10,212 nucleotides of DNA from a bacterium (GTDB taxonomy: Bacteria; JAJVIF01; JAGGVT01), in NCBI GenBank assembly GCA_021157815.1, contig JAGGVT010000200.1:1-10212 (forward strand). The letters run 5' to 3'. Under the pieces are notes generated by a model. The model ran no database searches, was not told where the DNA came from, and saw nothing but the letters and a program-made list of their open reading frames with translations. The position numbers were made by a program, and so were the translations under genes. Positions 131 through 10,149 of this stretch are shown one piece after another. Position 1 is the stretch's first letter, and the number at the start of each line of letters is the position of its first letter.

Positions 131-450
131 CTAACCTACTAACCTACTAACTTGCTAACTTGCTAACCTGCTAACCTACTAACCTGCTAACTTACTAACC
201 TGCTAACTTACTAACTTACTAACTTGCTAACCTACTAACCTGCTAACTTACTAACTTACTAACCTGCTAACCTGCTAACTTGCTAACTTGCTAACCTGCT
301 AACTTACTAACCTGCTAACTTACTAACTTACTAACTTGCTAACCTGCTAACTTACTAACTTACTAACCTGCTAACTTGCTAACCTGCTAACCTGCTAACT
401 TGCTAACCTGCTAACCTGCTAACTTGCTAACCTGTTAACCTGCTAACCTG
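131..450. repeat. Octanucleotide tandem array, 40 units of CTAACYTR
   Basis: The array is 320 bp and divides into exactly 40 in-register 8-bp units. Six unit positions are fixed and two vary, only by transitions: position 6 is C or T and position 8 is A or G. All four types occur by hand count: CTAACCTG 17, CTAACTTA 10, CTAACTTG 9, CTAACCTA 4. The only other change is a C-to-T at 435, which makes unit 39 TTAACCTG. The array starts abruptly after GTGTA at 126-130. It ends inside the last codons of the GGDEF gene, whose stop is in unit 40. The plus strand is G-poor and every unit contains TAA on plus and TAG on minus, so no frame stays open. There are no spacers and no within-strand dyad, so it is not a CRISPR array or a hairpin. 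It is a minisatellite-type array, presumably length-variable by slippage or unequal recombination. Confidence 0.97.
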
Positions 451-1978
451 CTTCCAATGAACCTTCCACAATTCTGTTACGGCCTGTTTCCTTTGCCTCG
501 TACAACGCCTTGTCCGCTGCGTTGATTATATTGTCCAGTGAATAGTCCGCTCCTTTTTCGAGGCAGACAAGTCCAACCGAAACAGTAATATGCATTTTCT
601 CATCGGATTCAAGCATGTCGATAGGATGATTTTCAATGGTTTTGTGAAGACGGCCAATTACCGCTCTTGCGCTTTTAAGGCTGGTTCTGGGAAGAAGAAT
701 CACGAATTCCTCACCGCCGTAACGCGCGATTATATCTACCTTGTTCCTGATGCTTGAACTGAAAACAGTCGCGACATTTTTCAGAACAACATCACCCTGC
801 AAATGGCCATAAGTGTCGTTTACACGCTTGAAATGGTCGATGTCAAGCATTGCAAGGGACAGTGTGTCGTTAAAGCGTTTGCACCTGACCAGTTCGTTCT
901 GGAAATCCTCATAGAACGCACGTCGATTCGGAAGCCCTGTCAGTTCATCAACGGTTGAAAGGCGATGAATCTCCTGATACAAAAGTGCGTTGTTCAGTGC
1001 AAGCGAAATGTGATACGCCATCAAATGAAGCGTTTTCAGATAGTAATCCCGTTTTGCCGCGGTTTTGTGTGTTTCTAATGTAAGTGTACCAAGCGTTGTA
1101 TGGCGCGCCTCAAGTGGCACAGTGAAAATGGTCGGGCTTTCGGATTCAGTATGATTTCTTGGCGGAAACGTACCAAGCGGGATTTCAGTTGGCTCCTCGG
1201 TGAATTCAGGCACGTCAACCGGCTTGTAGATCTTGCTGTATCCCTCAGATTCATGCAGGAAAGCTAGCTTTTTATCGTCAGGTATTTTCTTTTCAATGAA
1301 ACTAAAAATTTCATTGTTACGGAAAATTTGAATCGCGCCAGCGGAGTATTCCAGAATGTTGCCAAGCAGAAGCATTATTGAACGTGTCATTTTTCTGAAA
1401 TCGGTTGGTTCCTGTGCAAGCAGGGCGATTCGACTGGCAATTGATCCCTCAATCAGGGACTGATCAAACAAATGAGAGTAGTTTTCAACAAACGAGTAAC
1501 CTGAAAGCTCGTTTTTTATATTCAACCATGTTTCATCATCAATACTGTCAGAGGCGCTTTTTGCAGCCAGTTGATTAGCAATGCTGATCATCTCGTTGAA
1601 TTCCATATCAGTCGAATTCTTGCAGAAATCCAGATTCATTTCACCCGCCCAGAATTCACCGATTTGATAATCCCTGCTGACTATCATCATCAGAGGAATT
1701 CTTGCAAGATCAGGATGCCTTCTCATGATATGGGCGACTTGAAATCCGGATATTGTTGCAAGATCCGATTCAAGAATGACCAGATGCGGTTTGTGTCGAT
1801 GCAGGGATTGAAGCAGCTTAAGCCCGTCGCTGAACTCAACGATGTTATGTTGCTTTCCAAGCTCATTTTTGAGGGTTGCAAGACTAGTCAACGTATTTAT
1901 GCCGATTACAATACGATAGGCTTCCGTTGAGTTATCAACTGTCTTGTCTGTAATTTCACTTACCTCTGCTGGATTCAT
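443..1978 (-). CDS. Diguanylate cyclase with degenerate receiver, GAF-like region and GGDEF domain
   Basis: Predicted cytoplasmic enzyme making c-di-GMP from two GTP. The ATG at 1978 (511 aa) is preferred over an in-frame TTG at 1996, because GGGGGA at 1989-1994 sits 10 nt upstream of the ATG and nothing comparable precedes the TTG. Residues about 21-124 have a receiver-like fold pattern (LVILESDLATISGFQV), but the first acidic pair is absent and the phospho-acceptor Asp is Glu70, so phosphorylation is unlikely. Residues about 184-332 are GAF-like. Residues about 342-505 form the cyclase domain with DELTGLPNRR, DIDHFK at 379-384 and an intact GGEEF at 421-425. The RxxD inhibitory-site position reads NKVD (412-415), so canonical product inhibition is probably lost. 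No membrane segment is seen. The final Ala-Gly and the TAG stop lie in the octanucleotide array. The cyclase call is firm; the input signal is unknown. Confidence 0.93.
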   Translation of the reverse strand: MNPAEVSEITDKTVDNSTEAYRIVIGINTLTSLATLKNELGKQHNIVEFSDGLKLLQSLHRHKPHLVILESDLATISGFQVAHIMRRHPDLARIPLMMIVSRDYQIGEFWAGEMNLDFCKNSTDMEFNEMISIANQLAAKSASDSIDDETWLNIKNELSGYSFVENYSHLFDQSLIEGSIASRIALLAQEPTDFRKMTRSIMLLLGNILEYSAGAIQIFRNNEIFSFIEKKIPDDKKLAFLHESEGYSKIYKPVDVPEFTEEPTEIPLGTFPPRNHTESESPTIFTVPLEARHTTLGTLTLETHKTAAKRDYYLKTLHLMAYHISLALNNALLYQEIHRLSTVDELTGLPNRRAFYEDFQNELVRCKRFNDTLSLAMLDIDHFKRVNDTYGHLQGDVVLKNVATVFSSSIRNKVDIIARYGGEEFVILLPRTSLKSARAVIGRLHKTIENHPIDMLESDEKMHITVSVGLVCLEKGADYSLDNIINAADKALYEAKETGRNRIVEGSLEAG

Positions 1979-1988
1979 GTAAATAATA

Positions 1989-1994
1989 TCCCCC
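1989..1994 (-). promoter_or_regulatory. Shine-Dalgarno-like GGGGGA that decides the GGDEF start
   Basis: On the minus strand GGGGGA lies 10 nt before the ATG at 1978. The alternative TTG start at 1996 overlaps the left side of this G run and has no purine-rich site before it. This favours the shorter 511-residue product, though the spacing is slightly long. Confidence 0.5.
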
Positions 1995-2022
1995 AATGCA
2001 ATCAGGATTTGTTTCGCCTAAC

Positions 2023-2755: not shown

Positions 2756-5700
2756 TTATGTCTTTGGCGGTGTGAATGAACCGCGTGTGAGACGTACGCC
2801 GTCAACCGGAACCTCCTCAAACGCCTTGATTGCGTAAGGCTGGTTTGAACTGTTATTCATAAGAACTCGCTGGTCAATTGTCTCATCGGGGTCAAATTCC
2901 CATCCGGTTGTTTCATAGCTGAGATAGTTTTCAGCGCCGAAGTCAACGATCCAGAATTTGTCGCGGGAAACATCAAGCTTGCTCGTTCCATTCGCAACTC
3001 GCACCGTACCGCGCGATTCAACACGATAAACATAACTTCTCGTAGTTATGTAGGGGCTTATCCACTTGAAATCATCAGCGCTGAACAACCTGAACCGCTG
3101 CTGTTTATAGTAGCGAGTGTCAGGGTTTTTCGGTGCCGAACTGTCACCCGCTTCATACGGGCTTAATAATTCAACACCATCAACAGCGTCATGAAGCCCA
3201 AATGTAACCGGGAATTCTGTCTGGTATATTGGTCCCCAAACCGCAAGAGCGTTGGGGCCATCGTCAATATCCCCAGATGCCTCATTGTCATTTGCCTGAT
3301 CGTACGCAGTTGGCACAACATGCCTGTTGTTAACAGTATCTTCCGGATCAGGCCCGTAATCGTTGTCGTAACCCTCCAACAGCCAGTTGACCGGCAATTC
3401 GCCGTTGTAAAGCGCAACATTGAACAGATCGGCGATATTTCTAAATGGCGGTTCGGGGTCGTACAACGGACGATCTTTTGTGAATGGGTCATCATCGAGG
3501 TCATACGGCGCGAACGGATTGGCACGGTAATTTTTTCCCGTTTCTCCACCGACGACCGGGAATATCAAATTATCGGGAACCGTTTCACGTGTAATGGAGA
3601 AAGTATGGCTATTGTTATCGTAACATGGAGAATTGAAAGATTTTGACCTGTTGTTATAAACCCATCTGCGGTATTCATCAACCTGGTGCGCGTATGTGTC
3701 AGCTATCGCGAGAGCGTAAAGCCTGTCAACATTTGATGTTCGATCATAACCAAGATTGATGGGCGTAGGCCTCATTGAGATTGTGCTCTCAATCATTGGC
3801 GCTGAACCATGATTATTACTGTTACTGTCCTGATAAACCGCTCCCTGGAACATAAGAAGGAATAACGCTCTAAGCACACTGCGAGGAGCGGTATTTATAT
3901 TCACTTTTCCGGGATATGCCTGTGGGATGAACGTGAACGGCTCATCACTTGGAAGTGTTGGTGTGTAGGATGGCCTGAAACAAAGGACATCCGCGCACAT
4001 TTGTATCGGATCAACCATGTGCTGGGGCATTACCGGGAGATCCATTAATCTCCAGTTCTGGTCATCACCCTCGTCGAGGTCTTCCCTGAAAGCCAGTGAC
4101 GCTTTCTGAATCACCTGAGCGAGTTCCTCTCTAAGTGCCTCATCCCACGGATCACCGGCAAGATTAATCGGACCAGCTGGATATGCAACTGCAGTTCCTC
4201 TTGAGCCGCCGGGATCTCCATCGCTCTGGGTTGCTACAAGTGTCATTCCCCAGCCCCACGATGGGAACAGTTCGTTTTGAGGGCTGGTGGTAAGGTTTGT
4301 CAGATTTGAACCGCTTCTGCCAACAGTGTAAATGTCAGTAGAGCCGCCAAAAATTGGCACTCCCATGAAACACAGCTTGTTGCCGTACGGATCCCAGTCA
4401 GGAGCAAGCATGAATAAATCCGGTCGTACAAGAACCAACTCCCTGCGGTTGTCAATGAGATTCTGGATTACAATCATGAAAGCATTTCCAACCGGGGGAG
4501 GGAATAGCTCATTGAAATTGATAAGAGTGTATGCCAACCATTCACCGTCAGGACTGAAATCGGGATACAAGGCGAAGTAGCCATCGGGGAGATTGGTGAT
4601 ATTGTCCGGCATTCCAGCTGTGGGCCCATCAAGTCGAACCACATAAATATCAGTGTGCTCTGTCAGCGGGTCAGCGGAGAAATCAAGTTCACCCCCGCCG
4701 GCAAACGCCACCGTGTTTGCAACAGGCGACCAGTCAGGCGACGCGGCTTCAAAGAAATCTCCACCGGGGCCTAACGGGATGCTCATTTTGGCTAGAGGAA
4801 CATTGCTGTTCCAGTTTGTGCTTACTCTTGAATCCGAAGGGATATCATAAACGGAAAGCGTCTGGTCTCCCATGCCGACATCTTTATCAACATAAATGAA
4901 TTGCGTTCCTTCGGAATTATATGATGGATGATATCCCTCGGCGTTGCTCATCTGAGTAAGAACGTCGCCACGCGGGATATCCACTTCATACACGTCTTCA
5001 AGAGCGTTCAATGTGTCGAACATAAGCCTGGTTCCTGTGAAATCGATATCACAGGCAAGCCCATCGTCTGTATTGGGAATTGGGATTCCCGGTCCGCCCA
5101 CATTGGTCGGTTCGAATGTGCTCAGGCCGGCGCCGTCAATTGACGCGATTATCTGCGTATCTCTTACAGACATTGGAACCATTGCGAGTGTTCCAAGGTC
5201 GGGAACATTGAGCATCGCCGGATATGCAGGATTTGCCGGATCCTGGAAATTGAAATGTTCTCGCTCGCGGTATGTAATCTGGCTGACTGGCTGCGAATCA
5301 GTCGTCATGTTTGTTTCCGCTTCTGCTGTAGCGGGGTCTTTTACGGGTTGAAGGATATATTCATCGTTAAGGTCGCCGTCAGCGTTAAGGTCAACAAGAC
5401 CATCTCGCCATCTGAAAAGCGATCTGGTTCGCTCGGCACCAAGCGTTTTGTTGAAGAATGTCTTTACGAAGTAATCATCCTCGTTGCAGAAGTTGAAGTT
5501 TATACGGTAATCCAGATGGTCGGAGAAATAATCGCTGGTTTCCGCATCGGCTGTATGCTCTGTTTCGTATGTGTAAACCGTACAGGTGCGATTGAGAGTT
5601 TCAAAATCCTCCATCGCGAGCGGCGTATAATTAGGATAATCGCGATAATTAAAACGTCCGGGATCGTTTAAAAAGTCCTTTGGATTATTGTAAATCCTCC

Positions 5701-7276
5701 ACGTTCCCTGATTGGGCCTTGTGGCATCGCCTATCCTGCCTCGTCCGTTCATTGGGACATCTTCGAGAGTAGTCATGGATGGGTCGGGATATGTAATATC
5801 AATCTCGTCAGCTATTCCATCGTCATTGGCATCGTAATTTAGATCAAGTTTTTCCCTGACAATGAGCATGTTTCTGAGAATCCACTGCGCTTTCTGCTGT
5901 GCTGTTTCGAATCTGACAAGGCTGGTAAGTTCCCTGTCCTCCATGAGCAGAGCTGTTATCATGTCGCGTGCGATAAGGAAGTTTGAATAGTTCGGATGAT
6001 CATCATCGGTAATCAATTTGTCATAATCGCCCAGCACCAGGCCGTAATCATCATATCTGACAAGGGGAACCTCAAGTGCTGTGCCTTCCGAGTTGTAATC
6101 GTAATTCGCGCCCTGATAAATAATATTCAGAATCGTGTTCAAATTGAACCTTGCGGATTCATCCGAAACAATTGACTGGAACCATGCGGGAAGGTAATCA
6201 TCACCGGATGAACCGACCGGATACTGTGTAACTGAACCGGGAAGAGGTTTGTATTCTTTGTTTTTACTCGTCAGGTTACCAGGCCCGAAATGCAGGTTCG
6301 ACCACTCGGAATTCAGAACCGCTTCCTGCAGTACAGGGTTGTTTAAATATTGATTCTTGTCGTCTTCACCAAATGCACCGTTGTCGTCGATATCATCCAA
6401 ACGGCCGTCATAAACAAGCGCGTCCTCAATCTCGTTATTGTAAACAACGCTTCCAGCAGCTTCACCCGGATTAGTGTTTCTAAAATAACTACCCGGCCGT
6501 GCAATATATTTAGGTTTAACATAATCAGGATGCGATGAGGACATTTGCCATTCCTCTGTCACATAAACGGGCGGCGCCTGTTCTTCGTTGGAATCATCCG
6601 TATCCGCGGCGTATGCGTTAATAGGGGTAACCTGGCCCGCGCCCGGGAAAGTGTCCATGGGTAGAAGCATATCCGACAGCGTGTTGTAATGCGCATTGAA
6701 TGATCTCTCACCATGGTCATCCATTCCAAACGGAACGTTCATCATAATCCATCTTGTCGGAACGCTGTATTCATCGGGATTGCCCGGAGGGTCTGGATTG
6801 AACGGCGGGTTTTCAAGAAGTTCGTTTTCTCGCGAATGTTCCGCCATGAAGTATGTGAAATTGTCGGGATGCCGCGCCCACGATTCCGCGAGGTAGTCTA
6901 TATCATGGCGCCCTCGTGCCATTCCGGGAACCCAAAATGTATCATTCGGTCCTATCTCCAGTGGGAAAAGAAGTGGAACATGTCGAGTCGGATCGACGAT
7001 ATAATCACCGTAGAATCCATCCTGATTGTCTTCCATTAACGCCGCCATCGCCATGTCGAAACCCTTGTCGGCTTCGTGCAGCGCGATTTTGGTGTAACCC
7101 TCGTTTGTGGGCAGCATTGTCTCAATCTCAATCGTATTGAGAATAATCAGCGTTACAGGCAGGATGAGTGATATGAATATCAAAACCGTGGCGAGTACAA
7201 TTCCTTTTTCATTCTCAAACGGTTCTGAGAGTCTTTTTCTAATCATGTTAATTATGGCCATTTGAGGTAACCTCAT
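2756..7276 (-). CDS. Giant GspK-like minor pseudopilin with an inserted TolB/PD40 beta-propeller
   Basis: At 1506 aa this is several times the length of a usual GspK (about 300-350 aa). The ATG at 7276 is chosen because AGGTGA (7282-7287) lies 5 nt upstream; a GTG at 7285 overlaps that site, and ATGs at 7261 and 7246 are alternatives. After a basic stretch, residues about 25-50 (EKGIVLATVLIFISLILPV) form a prepilin-like membrane helix with no Glu at +5, as in GspK. GspK hallmarks follow: DESARFNLNT near 372-381, KVNINTAP at 1124-1131 with SVLRAL, PFRNIADLF near 1277-1285, and YRVESRGTV near 1416-1424. Between them, residues about 740-1017 carry six PD40-type motifs (for example YPDFSPDGEWLAY, APDWDPYGNKLCF). 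DxNxDG-type Ca-binding loops occur at about 482-493 and 629-640. It is inferred to cap a pseudopilus and display the propeller outside the inner membrane. The GspK assignment is by motif only. Confidence 0.85.
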   Translation of the reverse strand: MRLPQMAIINMIRKRLSEPFENEKGIVLATVLIFISLILPVTLIILNTIEIETMLPTNEGYTKIALHEADKGFDMAMAALMEDNQDGFYGDYIVDPTRHVPLLFPLEIGPNDTFWVPGMARGRHDIDYLAESWARHPDNFTYFMAEHSRENELLENPPFNPDPPGNPDEYSVPTRWIMMNVPFGMDDHGERSFNAHYNTLSDMLLPMDTFPGAGQVTPINAYAADTDDSNEEQAPPVYVTEEWQMSSSHPDYVKPKYIARPGSYFRNTNPGEAAGSVVYNNEIEDALVYDGRLDDIDDNGAFGEDDKNQYLNNPVLQEAVLNSEWSNLHFGPGNLTSKNKEYKPLPGSVTQYPVGSSGDDYLPAWFQSIVSDESARFNLNTILNIIYQGANYDYNSEGTALEVPLVRYDDYGLVLGDYDKLITDDDHPNYSNFLIARDMITALLMEDRELTSLVRFETAQQKAQWILRNMLIVREKLDLNYDANDDGIADEIDITYPDPSMTTLEDVPMNGRGRIGDATRPNQGTWRIYNNPKDFLNDPGRFNYRDYPNYTPLAMEDFETLNRTCTVYTYETEHTADAETSDYFSDHLDYRINFNFCNEDDYFVKTFFNKTLGAERTRSLFRWRDGLVDLNADGDLNDEYILQPVKDPATAEAETNMTTDSQPVSQITYREREHFNFQDPANPAYPAMLNVPDLGTLAMVPMSVRDTQIIASIDGAGLSTFEPTNVGGPGIPIPNTDDGLACDIDFTGTRLMFDTLNALEDVYEVDIPRGDVLTQMSNAEGYHPSYNSEGTQFIYVDKDVGMGDQTLSVYDIPSDSRVSTNWNSNVPLAKMSIPLGPGGDFFEAASPDWSPVANTVAFAGGGELDFSADPLTEHTDIYVVRLDGPTAGMPDNITNLPDGYFALYPDFSPDGEWLAYTLINFNELFPPPVGNAFMIVIQNLIDNRRELVLVRPDLFMLAPDWDPYGNKLCFMGVPIFGGSTDIYTVGRSGSNLTNLTTSPQNELFPSWGWGMTLVATQSDGDPGGSRGTAVAYPAGPINLAGDPWDEALREELAQVIQKASLAFREDLDEGDDQNWRLMDLPVMPQHMVDPIQMCADVLCFRPSYTPTLPSDEPFTFIPQAYPGKVNINTAPRSVLRALFLLMFQGAVYQDSNSNNHGSAPMIESTISMRPTPINLGYDRTSNVDRLYALAIADTYAHQVDEYRRWVYNNRSKSFNSPCYDNNSHTFSITRETVPDNLIFPVVGGETGKNYRANPFAPYDLDDDPFTKDRPLYDPEPPFRNIADLFNVALYNGELPVNWLLEGYDNDYGPDPEDTVNNRHVVPTAYDQANDNEASGDIDDGPNALAVWGPIYQTEFPVTFGLHDAVDGVELLSPYEAGDSSAPKNPDTRYYKQQRFRLFSADDFKWISPYITTRSYVYRVESRGTVRVANGTSKLDVSRDKFWIVDFGAENYLSYETTGWEFDPDETIDQRVLMNNSSNQPYAIKAFEEVPVDGVRLTRGSFTPPKT

Positions 7277-7281
7277 TAAAA

Positions 7282-7287
7282 TCACCT
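7282..7287 (-). promoter_or_regulatory. Shine-Dalgarno AGGTGA that decides the GspK-like start
   Basis: AGGTGA on the minus strand sits 5 nt before the ATG at 7276, and the upstream in-frame GTG is part of this site. Just inside the gene, 7264-7274 reads GAGGTTACCTC on the minus strand, a palindrome that also offers a ribosome site for the ATG at 7261. Confidence 0.6.
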
Positions 7288-7375: not shown

Positions 7376-9031
7376 CTATAAGAAACTAAGACCCATGCGA
7401 AGATGTCCGGCGGCTTCACGCGATGTCGAATACAGCACGGGCGGTGAGACAATTGTCTGCAATGTAACAAACCGTCCCGGGTCGAATCCCGCATTGCCGT
7501 TCGGATCAACAAAGTCAAAAAGCACGTCAGAATCACCTGGATTGATAATAAAATCTCCGGGGATCACAACACCTTCCCTGTAGCTGTCCAGAGCATGCCA
7601 TAAAGGATCAATCTCGTTCCGATCATCCAGTCGAGATGCGCCTTTCTGGAAATCGACAAAACCAAGTCCCCAGTCGGGACGAGTCGTATCACCACCGCTT
7701 ATAATATCGTGCGAAATTGAAGTGAAATAATTCTCCTGAAGTTCTGTATTCGCGGCTTTGATTGTTATCATTATTGTGTTGACATATCGCCAGCCCTCGA
7801 AGAGAAGCAGTCCGCGCTCAAATTCATTTGTAGGCATGAATGTATAGCGGTCGTCGGATGGATCTTCATCTTTCCAGTGTTCGATTATTTCAGCCCTTGT
7901 GGAATTTGCAGGTGGCAGGTTAAGATCGCCGTCAGGTGTCGCCCAGGAAAAAATCTCGTCTCCGTATTTTGTATAATAACGGTAGTATCCGTCATTTATG
8001 TTACTGGGCATTGTGTGCCCCTGAGCAACATGTTCTGTATGAGGATCATAACGAATCTCAATCCATTCGCCGCCTCTGATATGGAAATACCTGAACCTGA
8101 TATCCGCTATATGATCTGCCACTATCTGGCGAAGATCCTCTGATGGGCGAGTCAAATCGATTCCGCTGTCGTTGCCGAGTGGGTCAACGAGATTATGGAA
8201 TTTAAACGATTCGTTGAATCCCCAATGGTTCGGTCCGCCGCCTGTTACATTCTCAATCTCAAAACTCCTCAACAGAACGAAAGGCTTTTTGAAAAGATTG
8301 ACTCCGCCTCCTGAACTTCCGAGAATAGGCAGATGAAGGTTTTTCAACAACCCTTCGTCTTCAAGCAATCCCCAGCGCGGAGGCTGTTTCTGATGCTCAA
8401 ACGTTACTCTAACATCAGCCGCTTGAGCATTGTCAAAATTGCGCAAGGCATCCATGGATGTGCCGTCAATATCGATTATTCCACCCGGTATGGATGGATT
8501 CATGTTTGAATATCGTGTATGCGGGAAATAGGATGCCTGGTTCATTTTGAAATTAATTTTGTTGGGAAACAAGGGACGAACATCATACGGCATCCCGTCA
8601 CTTCTGAAATCCTCGTATTCATCAACCCCACCCGAGGCGTCCCTGTGGTTGAGATCAATATATCCGCGCAAACTGCCATCTGTTGACTGCCTTAGAAATG
8701 GATAAACCTCGTTAAAGAAACTGTCTTCACATTCCCCGTTGGTTGGAAAACCGCCTGTTCTGGGATCGCGGTATTCAGAATAAGATGGCGATTCAAGCTC
8801 GCTCATCTGCTTGATATCATCAGCTAGAAAGTTGATTGCGATACGCCCGTTTTGCTGTGCGACCGTTCGCTGGTCGCCGGTTTTCATGGTTTGAATGGTC
8901 GCTACAACAACCGCGGTGAACGATACGAAGAAAACACTCGCAATGGTCATTGCCACCATCATTTCAATCAGTGTGAAACCAGCCTCTGAGCGGCATTGGG
9001 AATTTACTCTGTTTTGTAAATATTTATCCAT
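7376..9031 (-). CDS. GspJ/PilW-like minor pseudopilin (prepilin-type N-terminus)
   Basis: 551 aa, against roughly 200-350 for typical GspJ or PilW. The ATG at 9031 has AGGA 6 nt upstream (9038-9041). The leader ends RSEAG, with the expected prepilin-peptidase cut between Gly18 and Phe19. The mature N-terminus FTLIEMMVAMTIASVFFVSF keeps Glu at +5 (Glu23) and forms the membrane helix and assembly spine. Residues 51-76 (TGDQRTVAQQNGRIAINFLADDI) resemble the conserved helix of GspJ/PilW. IVADHIADIRFRYFHIRGGEW (303-323) resembles the GspJ/PilW strand in which the fitted bond line reads fry.. followed by a tryptophan. The C-terminus ends in strand-like segments (FVTLQTIVSPPVLY). A DPNGNAGFDPGR loop at 509-520 may bind Ca2+. 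The gene lies 56 bp after the G-like gene and 99 bp before the K-like gene, in one operon. The exact J versus PilW assignment is uncertain. Confidence 0.88.
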   Translation of the reverse strand: MDKYLQNRVNSQCRSEAGFTLIEMMVAMTIASVFFVSFTAVVVATIQTMKTGDQRTVAQQNGRIAINFLADDIKQMSELESPSYSEYRDPRTGGFPTNGECEDSFFNEVYPFLRQSTDGSLRGYIDLNHRDASGGVDEYEDFRSDGMPYDVRPLFPNKINFKMNQASYFPHTRYSNMNPSIPGGIIDIDGTSMDALRNFDNAQAADVRVTFEHQKQPPRWGLLEDEGLLKNLHLPILGSSGGGVNLFKKPFVLLRSFEIENVTGGGPNHWGFNESFKFHNLVDPLGNDSGIDLTRPSEDLRQIVADHIADIRFRYFHIRGGEWIEIRYDPHTEHVAQGHTMPSNINDGYYRYYTKYGDEIFSWATPDGDLNLPPANSTRAEIIEHWKDEDPSDDRYTFMPTNEFERGLLLFEGWRYVNTIMITIKAANTELQENYFTSISHDIISGGDTTRPDWGLGFVDFQKGASRLDDRNEIDPLWHALDSYREGVVIPGDFIINPGDSDVLFDFVDPNGNAGFDPGRFVTLQTIVSPPVLYSTSREAAGHLRMGLSFL

Positions 9032-9087
9032 AATTTATCCTTGCCTTGTAAAAAATTCTGTTCCCTGGCAAATATTACCTTCGCAAA

Positions 9088-10149
9088 TTATGATTGATCA
9101 GAGACACGAATCTGATCCATATAAGCTGTGCCTTTTACCAATAAGGCGCCACACAAAGCTCTCTGCACCATTCGTTCGTAAGCTGTAAAAGTGTTGGGAT
9201 TGCCGTCGCCAAGCGGTCGCGGCAAATTCGGCATAATATTCGCGTATCTGTTAGCGCGAGCTGTGTCCATTGAGCCGTAGCCCACAATCCAGTAATTCTT
9301 GCAGAAGACCATGAAATCACCTGCGGTTGGATCAGGCTGAATCGGATCGAGCGGAATGTATGCAAAATCGCCCATCGGGAAAACATACATCGTCTGCTGA
9401 TCTTCGGGTGTGAAACGGTTATCGCCGTTGCGATCCCACCTAAGGTTATTGGCATTCACCGGAGCTGCTTGTGTCTCGCTGAAACCGGCTTCATCAAAAA
9501 ACGGGTCAGCAATTCGGAGTGGGAAACTGTAGTTTCCATTTGTAAAGTCGCCATACAGATTCGTATAGCTGATGTTAATGTCCAATGCCACCAATCCGTT
9601 GCCTCTGTCAGCTGGATGATTCAGAAATTCAAGTCCGAAGATATTCATCATCGGAATACCGGCATCTGTAACACCCTTGATATTCTGCCTGAACGGGTTT
9701 GTGGGGTACGCGTCGAGCGAACCGTCAGCTATCAGCCTGTCAGGAAGCTGTGGTGGTGGAAATGCTTCAGGGTCGATTGAATTCGGTTGGAAATAAAATG
9801 CGTCCAGGAAACGCAGGGATGGATCATTTGGCTTGACTATCCCGCCGCCAATTATCCCTCTCATACCGAAATATTCTAATCCGTTATCGGGGTCAAAATG
9901 GTGAAAAAATGGAACATTAATGTCGATGTCCGTAATCGGAAGCGCAACGCCGGGATAAAGGCCGTCATGGTTCAACTGGTAATTCTCAAGCGCGTTCATG
10001 ATGACAGAGATACCAGCTCTAACCTGTGTGTCCCGAGCTTTGTTTTTTATTTTGGAATAATTAGGAACCGCGATTGCAATCAGAATTCCAATGATTGTGA
10101 TAACAACCAGGAGTTCCACCAGTGTAAATCCGTTTTGTGACTTCTTCAT
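9088..10149 (-). CDS. GspG-like pseudopilin (prepilin-type N-terminus)
   Basis: 353 aa, against about 140-150 for classical GspG. The ATG at 10149 has GAGGTGA (10157-10163) 7 nt upstream. A short basic leader MKKSQNG precedes the cut at Gly7/Phe8. The mature FTLVELLVVITIIGILIAIA keeps Glu at +5 (Glu12). The segment AGISVIMNALENYQLNHDGLYPG (45-67) matches the GspG helix that ends in a Tyr-Pro, and LPDRLIADGSLDAYPTNPF (135-153) resembles the GspG region before its Ca-binding loop. The remaining C-terminal extension holds a dockerin/EF-type loop DRNGDNRFTPED (239-250) and two cysteines (283, 333). It is probably the shaft-type subunit and first gene of the visible operon. It could instead be a stand-alone pilin-like surface protein, since no assembly machinery is in view. 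Confidence 0.88.
   Translation of the reverse strand: MKKSQNGFTLVELLVVITIIGILIAIAVPNYSKIKNKARDTQVRAGISVIMNALENYQLNHDGLYPGVALPITDIDINVPFFHHFDPDNGLEYFGMRGIIGGGIVKPNDPSLRFLDAFYFQPNSIDPEAFPPPQLPDRLIADGSLDAYPTNPFRQNIKGVTDAGIPMMNIFGLEFLNHPADRGNGLVALDINISYTNLYGDFTNGNYSFPLRIADPFFDEAGFSETQAAPVNANNLRWDRNGDNRFTPEDQQTMYVFPMGDFAYIPLDPIQPDPTAGDFMVFCKNYWIVGYGSMDTARANRYANIMPNLPRPLGDGNPNTFTAYERMVQRALCGALLVKGTAYMDQIRVSDQS

Follow-up and report, generated by a model that had tools for sequence, protein, structure and literature searches.

A TolB-type propeller within a GspK-like minor pseudopilin, and a possible insertion slot shared with giant K-type proteins of other lineages

GspK has been proposed to cap the type II pseudopilus (PMC7541494), and the locus studied here encodes a GspK-like protein of about 1500 residues. 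The window, by which we mean the whole stretch of DNA analysed (10,212 nucleotides), is one entire 10.2-kb contig (C17) of a 3.2-Mb MAG in 221 contigs. An earlier note, made from the sequence alone, had described an uninterrupted frame for an enlarged protein of ~1500 residues, and this description holds: the frame at 2756-7285 on the minus strand is unbroken across 1509 codons, counted from a GTG at 7285 that also serves for our residue numbering. Judged from the sequence, the likeliest start of the gene is the ATG at 7276, which is preceded by the Shine-Dalgarno-like AGGTGA and is a better candidate than the GTG; it is the start that the earlier note had chosen. The features of the window are as follows.

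2756..7276, minus strand: giant GspK-like minor (pseudo)pilin gene, 1506 aa from ATG 7276, with four collinear GspK matches
7130..7276, minus strand: hydrophobic helix preceded by a class III signal peptide, predicted to be cleaved after G28 (residues counted from GTG 7285); canonical GspK columns 22-92 align with residues 18-88
6125..6190, minus strand: GspK motif 1 region SIVSDESARFNLN, residues 366-387, hhalign match to canonical GspK
5558..5581, minus strand: TVYTYETE, residues 569-576, where the putative alpha-domain would end and the insertion slot open; alone E 0.38
5213..5557, minus strand: entry segment, residues 577-691, including RINFN and WRDGLVDLNADGDLNDEY; 41-51% identity with relatives
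4133..5212, minus strand: TolB-type beta-propeller, residues 692-1051, profile and fold matches
3848..3919, minus strand: GspK motif 2 KVNINTAPRSVLRAL, residues 1123-1146, T2SSK-type
2960..3067, minus strand: C-terminal pilin beta-strand region TTRSYVYRVESRGTVRVANG, residues 1407-1442; hhalign match weak alone
7376..9031, minus strand: GspJ-like minor pseudopilin, enlarged, 551 aa; N_methyl 8.9e-8, HpsC 6e-7, Verru_Chthon C 2e-6
9088..10149, minus strand: enlarged GspG-like pseudopilin of 353 aa, whose N-terminal 60 aa match TIGR01710 (1.9e-13)

The prepilin-like segment of the protein reads ENEKG/IVLATVLIFISLILPV, with T rather than Glu at mature position 5. The processing site (ENEKG/IVLAT) has counterparts in the relatives (RRG/SIIAT and ERG/VVLIA), and Glu5 is missing throughout, as it is in GspK and likewise in PilX (PMC7541494).

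As a canonical reference we aligned 16 GspKs from other genomes, drawn from a PF03934 search over 385 genomes that also returned many proteins of other sizes and did not list the giants cleanly, and compared this alignment with the window K family by hhalign. Four local matches were obtained: the N-terminal helix (residues 18-88, E 8e-4), the DESxRFNLN region (366-387, E 0.0026), the NINTAP region (1123-1146, E 4e-5) and the C-terminal strand (1407-1442, E 0.05), the last being the best-conserved stretch of the window K family. Singly these matches are weak to moderate, and we accept a GspK core because all four keep the canonical order. The prepilin-like N-terminus and the GspK-type motifs pointed out earlier, DESARFNLN near residue 375 and KVNINTAP near residue 1127, thus align collinearly with canonical GspK. 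Pfam T2SSK and NCBIfam GspK both match NINTAP below their curated cut-offs; since the GspK equivalog NF037980 reaches only 15.8 bits against a cut-off of 130 bits, we call the protein GspK-like and not an NCBIfam equivalog.

Between these two motifs GspK proteins have an inserted alpha-domain. In the window protein TVYT alone of this domain is recognisable by profile, and the domain is more distinct in two giants discussed below, G166 and G359. RINFN in the entry segment may, from its sequence, be a first NxN copy. An AlphaFold2 (AF2) run on residues 360-1509 with three sequences gave no confident model (pLDDT 27) and was discarded. Compared with GspK/PulK (T2SSK, NF037980), the protein shares the class III leader without Glu5, DExGxxNLN, NxNTA(P), the C-terminal strand and a place in the gene order alongside H, I, G and J; it differs in its ~1500 aa, against roughly 300-450 aa in canonical members, in ~550 extra residues, including the propeller, before NINTAP, in being expanded also ahead of motif 1 and beyond NINTAP, and in scores that stay under the curated cut-offs.

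The propeller sits between the second and third GspK matches, DESxRFNLN and NINTAP. TIGR02800, the TolB model, matches residues 904-1010 (E=1.2e-8), and because its score of 34.4 bits is far from the 343-bit cut-off we regard the protein not as TolB but as the bearer of a TolB-type propeller; the PD40-type fold and sequence signature are shared with TolB, but the signature is confined here to the propeller. Pfam PD40 is sub-threshold on the window protein (E 0.33) and clear in the propellers of the relatives (4e-7, and 1.3e-8 as the best among four propeller segments). Searching the PDB with a profile built from the four propeller segments gave 2ojh at 8.3e-10 and TolB structures at 1e-5, whereas phmmer with the whole window protein found no match there. 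The AF2 model of residues 692-1051 is of modest confidence (pLDDT 54, pTM 0.65); as had been proposed for a structural check, it was compared with known folds, and Foldseek returned TolB as the top match (3.5e-9), while VIA-align returned propellers at Z ~20 over 250-290 residues. Since the fold matches take in both six-bladed TolB and seven-bladed propellers, the blade count may be six or seven; the propeller of the earlier note is borne out by profiles and fold. Four strict blade motifs fall in the propeller against 0.10 expected after shuffling, a count reached in 0/5000 shuffles, which we treat as supportive only because the motif was written by hand after the sequence had been read. The window genome has 20 matches to other TolB-like propeller stretches, and these are a possible source of the propeller in the K protein.

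The fusion, which the earlier note had proposed to look for in related genomes, was found in all three same-class relatives examined: it is 1605 aa long in G001 (contig JAPKYR010000137, from a Lac Pavin sediment MAG) and 1595 aa in G002, and is split across two contigs in G003, one of which is DAOVJF010000310 (Planctomycetota bacterium). A single-sequence scan of genome contigs with the window protein had detected no relative. Among the three full-length members (window, G001, G002) identity is mostly 41-65% in the core blocks (33-38% for residues 1217-1395) and 22-32% in the propeller, the least conserved part. The window is a complete 10.2-kb MAG contig, and the operon is broken over contigs, circumstances under which assembly or annotation might have joined two separate genes; but the fusion recurs at ~40% identity in three further genomes, one of them 99% complete in four contigs, and with orthologues carrying the same GspK-propeller fusion we rule this artefact out as next to impossible.

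The GspJ-like and GspG-like genes lie upstream of the giant K gene on the same strand. The genes run prepilin peptidase, H, I, G, J, K in both G002 and G003, and K is followed by a secretin and PilM/N-like genes in G002 and G001; an association with secretion-machine genes is present, and the K protein has the gspG/H/I/J and machinery neighbours of a GspK. PilM and PilN are fused in the operon, in a GspL-like manner, and the operon secretin of G002 consists of AMIN and Secretin domains. In the window genome, H and I stand at the end of contig C85, and the secretin, PilM/N and PilO on C67; C85 terminates in palindrome-like repeats, which may be why the contig breaks there, and a search for an overlap joining C85 to C17 found none. 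PilT-like (retraction-ATPase) genes lie upstream of the K locus in G003, and in G002 several kb upstream on the opposite strand. Contig C80 of the window genome holds a separate locus with small pilins whose gene lengths and order resemble a type IVa pilus locus, the genes being named by order, length and PilM/N and secretin matches. In operons of this type all the pseudopilins H, I, G and J are enlarged, to ~340-610 aa (window 7376-10149; L036; L039; L089), and the operon secretins contain long Gly-rich stretches (L036:14147-17185 and L037:7107-9995).

A family HMM run over 385 genomes gave N-terminal matches in very large ORFs of other lineages. Another small phylum, that of G166, has giants of 3108, 3600 and 3647 aa, and in 9/10 of its genomes ORFs of 2149-3807 aa match the N-terminal 700 residues of G166; in one giant the T2SSK_1st and T2SSK parts are ~2,170 residues apart, with PKD matches within the insert. 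We compared motif positions in seven giants of this phylum, the window protein, G002, G001, G359 and G226. The order DExxRxNLN-like, TVY(S/T)YDT-like, NINTA was found in all except G226, a large K-like protein (1306 aa) that has no TVY motif and was for this reason left out of the slot count; the TVYTYETE-like motif is common to giants of the window's class, of the other phylum and G359. TVY and NINTA are separated by 559 residues in the window protein, 590 in G002, 645 in G001, 595 in G359 and ~2,070-2,780 in the seven giants (~3,000-3,650 aa), as against ~15 to NINTAP in the canonical GspK consensus; the passengers of the seven giants amount to ~2,100-2,800 residues, some of them with PKD/Ig-like matches. 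This regularity is descriptive, because the motifs were picked by eye on some of the same sequences. Support independent of those motifs comes from hhalign, which places the slot in both G166 and G359; the latter, a 1049-aa GspK with ~590 residues in the slot, gives the strongest alignment to canonical GspK (E 2.8e-11 and 2.3e-10), with the same split. The ~3,000-3,650-residue K-type pseudopilins (L073:2855-12178, minus strand; L074:1946-12745, minus strand; L075:6017-16957, plus strand; L126-L129) are possibly the largest pilins, and in the three that were scanned the insert has only weak or single PKD/Ig-like matches.

Because lineages insert different large modules at one spot, the filament tip resembles a socket for swappable tools. 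We put at about even chances the general proposal that K-type tip pseudopilins hold a fixed acceptor slot, from TVYSYDT to NINTAP, filled with lineage-specific passengers, that the resulting proteins may be larger than any known pilin, and that the tip is an interchangeable tool holder replacing a PilY1-like protein.

For the window protein itself, we suggest that it is probably a K-type minor pilin in the GspK/PilX position, with the slot loop enlarged by a TolB-type propeller that serves as a ligand-binding module displayed at the tip, an analogue of PilX plus PilY1. A prepilin peptidase would remove the leader of the giant K protein, which, without Glu5, would cap the I-J-K complex that initiates the filament; the filament would then drive the tip in the direction of the secretin or through it, where the fast-evolving propeller could bind a ligand (a surface polymer, another cell or an exported protein), like PilY1 on type IVa pili, and other lineages would load other passengers into the same slot. 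The tip position, the passage through the secretin, the binding of a ligand and the role in secretion or in a pilus are inferred.

On this last point the neighbouring genes point both ways, the H-I-G-J-K set and the GspL-like PilM-PilN fusion towards a T2SS, the AMIN secretin and nearby PilT-like genes towards a type IV pilus. In a true T2SS the propeller could instead act as a receptor for substrates in the periplasm, where the tip would stay, binding folded exoproteins and pushing them through the secretin. Such a receptor would suit the pseudopilin set and the fusion, the presence of a separate type IVa-like pilus locus with small pilins on C80, and the interaction with substrates that has been proposed for GspK (PMC7541494); we nonetheless think it unlikely, since an AMIN domain is present in the operon secretin, PilT-like ATPases lie near the K locus in G003 and G002, and no cargo gene was recognised beside the operon. 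The AMIN domain is a feature of PilQ secretins. That the enlarged tip is mainly mechanical or gating, a plug for a wide secretin or a steric block on extension in which the propeller only adds bulk, appears less probable still. Enlargement of every pseudopilin of the operon fits such a role, as do the giants of the other phylum with their much bigger inserts and only PKD/Ig-like matches, but a propeller is more specific than bulk requires; divergence focused in the propeller suits change on a ligand-facing surface, although relaxed constraint would look identical.

A close comparison is with the type IVa pilus tip of PilX and PilY1, the latter sitting on the former (PMC7541494). Shared are a K-type minor pilin and a propeller presumably at the tip; the window protein differs in being a single polypeptide with a TolB/PD40-type propeller outside the PilY1 family, and PF05567 (PilY1) has no Pfam match in it. 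PF05567 occurs in 32/192 genomes and in none of G000-G003, an absence that fits replacement by a built-in propeller and is weak evidence because most of the 192 genomes also do without PilY1.

Modular pilins display binding domains (PMC8179133), and the window protein, having a pilin N-terminus and a domain that is not pilus-specific, is one by that definition. With S. sanguinis PilB and PilC and Thermus ComZ, which has an inserted beta-solenoid, it has in common a pilin that bears an added functional module, either attached or inserted (PMC8179133); here the module is inside a GspK-type subunit, after what is probably that subunit's own alpha-domain, whereas that of PilB is C-terminal. The Verru_Chthon cassette protein A family (TIGR02600, 1296 model positions) likewise comprises very large proteins and is matched by G359 (1.4e-9); the window protein gave no match to it at E up to 1. 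Our literature search found no GspK-type subunit with a TolB-type propeller, no insertion slot common to lineages with different passengers, and no paper linking Verru_Chthon and pilin by name. The earlier statement that no such arrangement was known to be described holds only in part, as there are precedents in modular pilins, in the alpha-domain that GspK has, in the solenoid inserted into ComZ (PMC8179133) and in TIGR02600 with its large proteins. The TolB-type propeller within a GspK-type subunit is real and conserved.

The giant K protein may be a single-gene equivalent of the PilX-PilY1 tip. It also offers a testable view of how filament tips can be re-tooled, in which one molecule with a conserved site of insertion both starts assembly and makes contact with the outside. 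In understudied phyla, GspK-like tip proteins score under curated cut-offs and can be missed.

Downstream of the giant K gene, on the same strand, lies a response-regulator-like gene with a GGDEF domain (443-1996, minus strand; GGDEF E 3.5e-49); we can only guess at a tie to surface sensing. An 8-bp tandem repeat, CTAACCTG, in ~40 copies at 131-452 extends into the 3' end of this gene. The gap between the two genes holds an inverted repeat with TTCGCGAAAGCGGGAATC-type arms (2145-2306), and a similar repeat ends contig C85.
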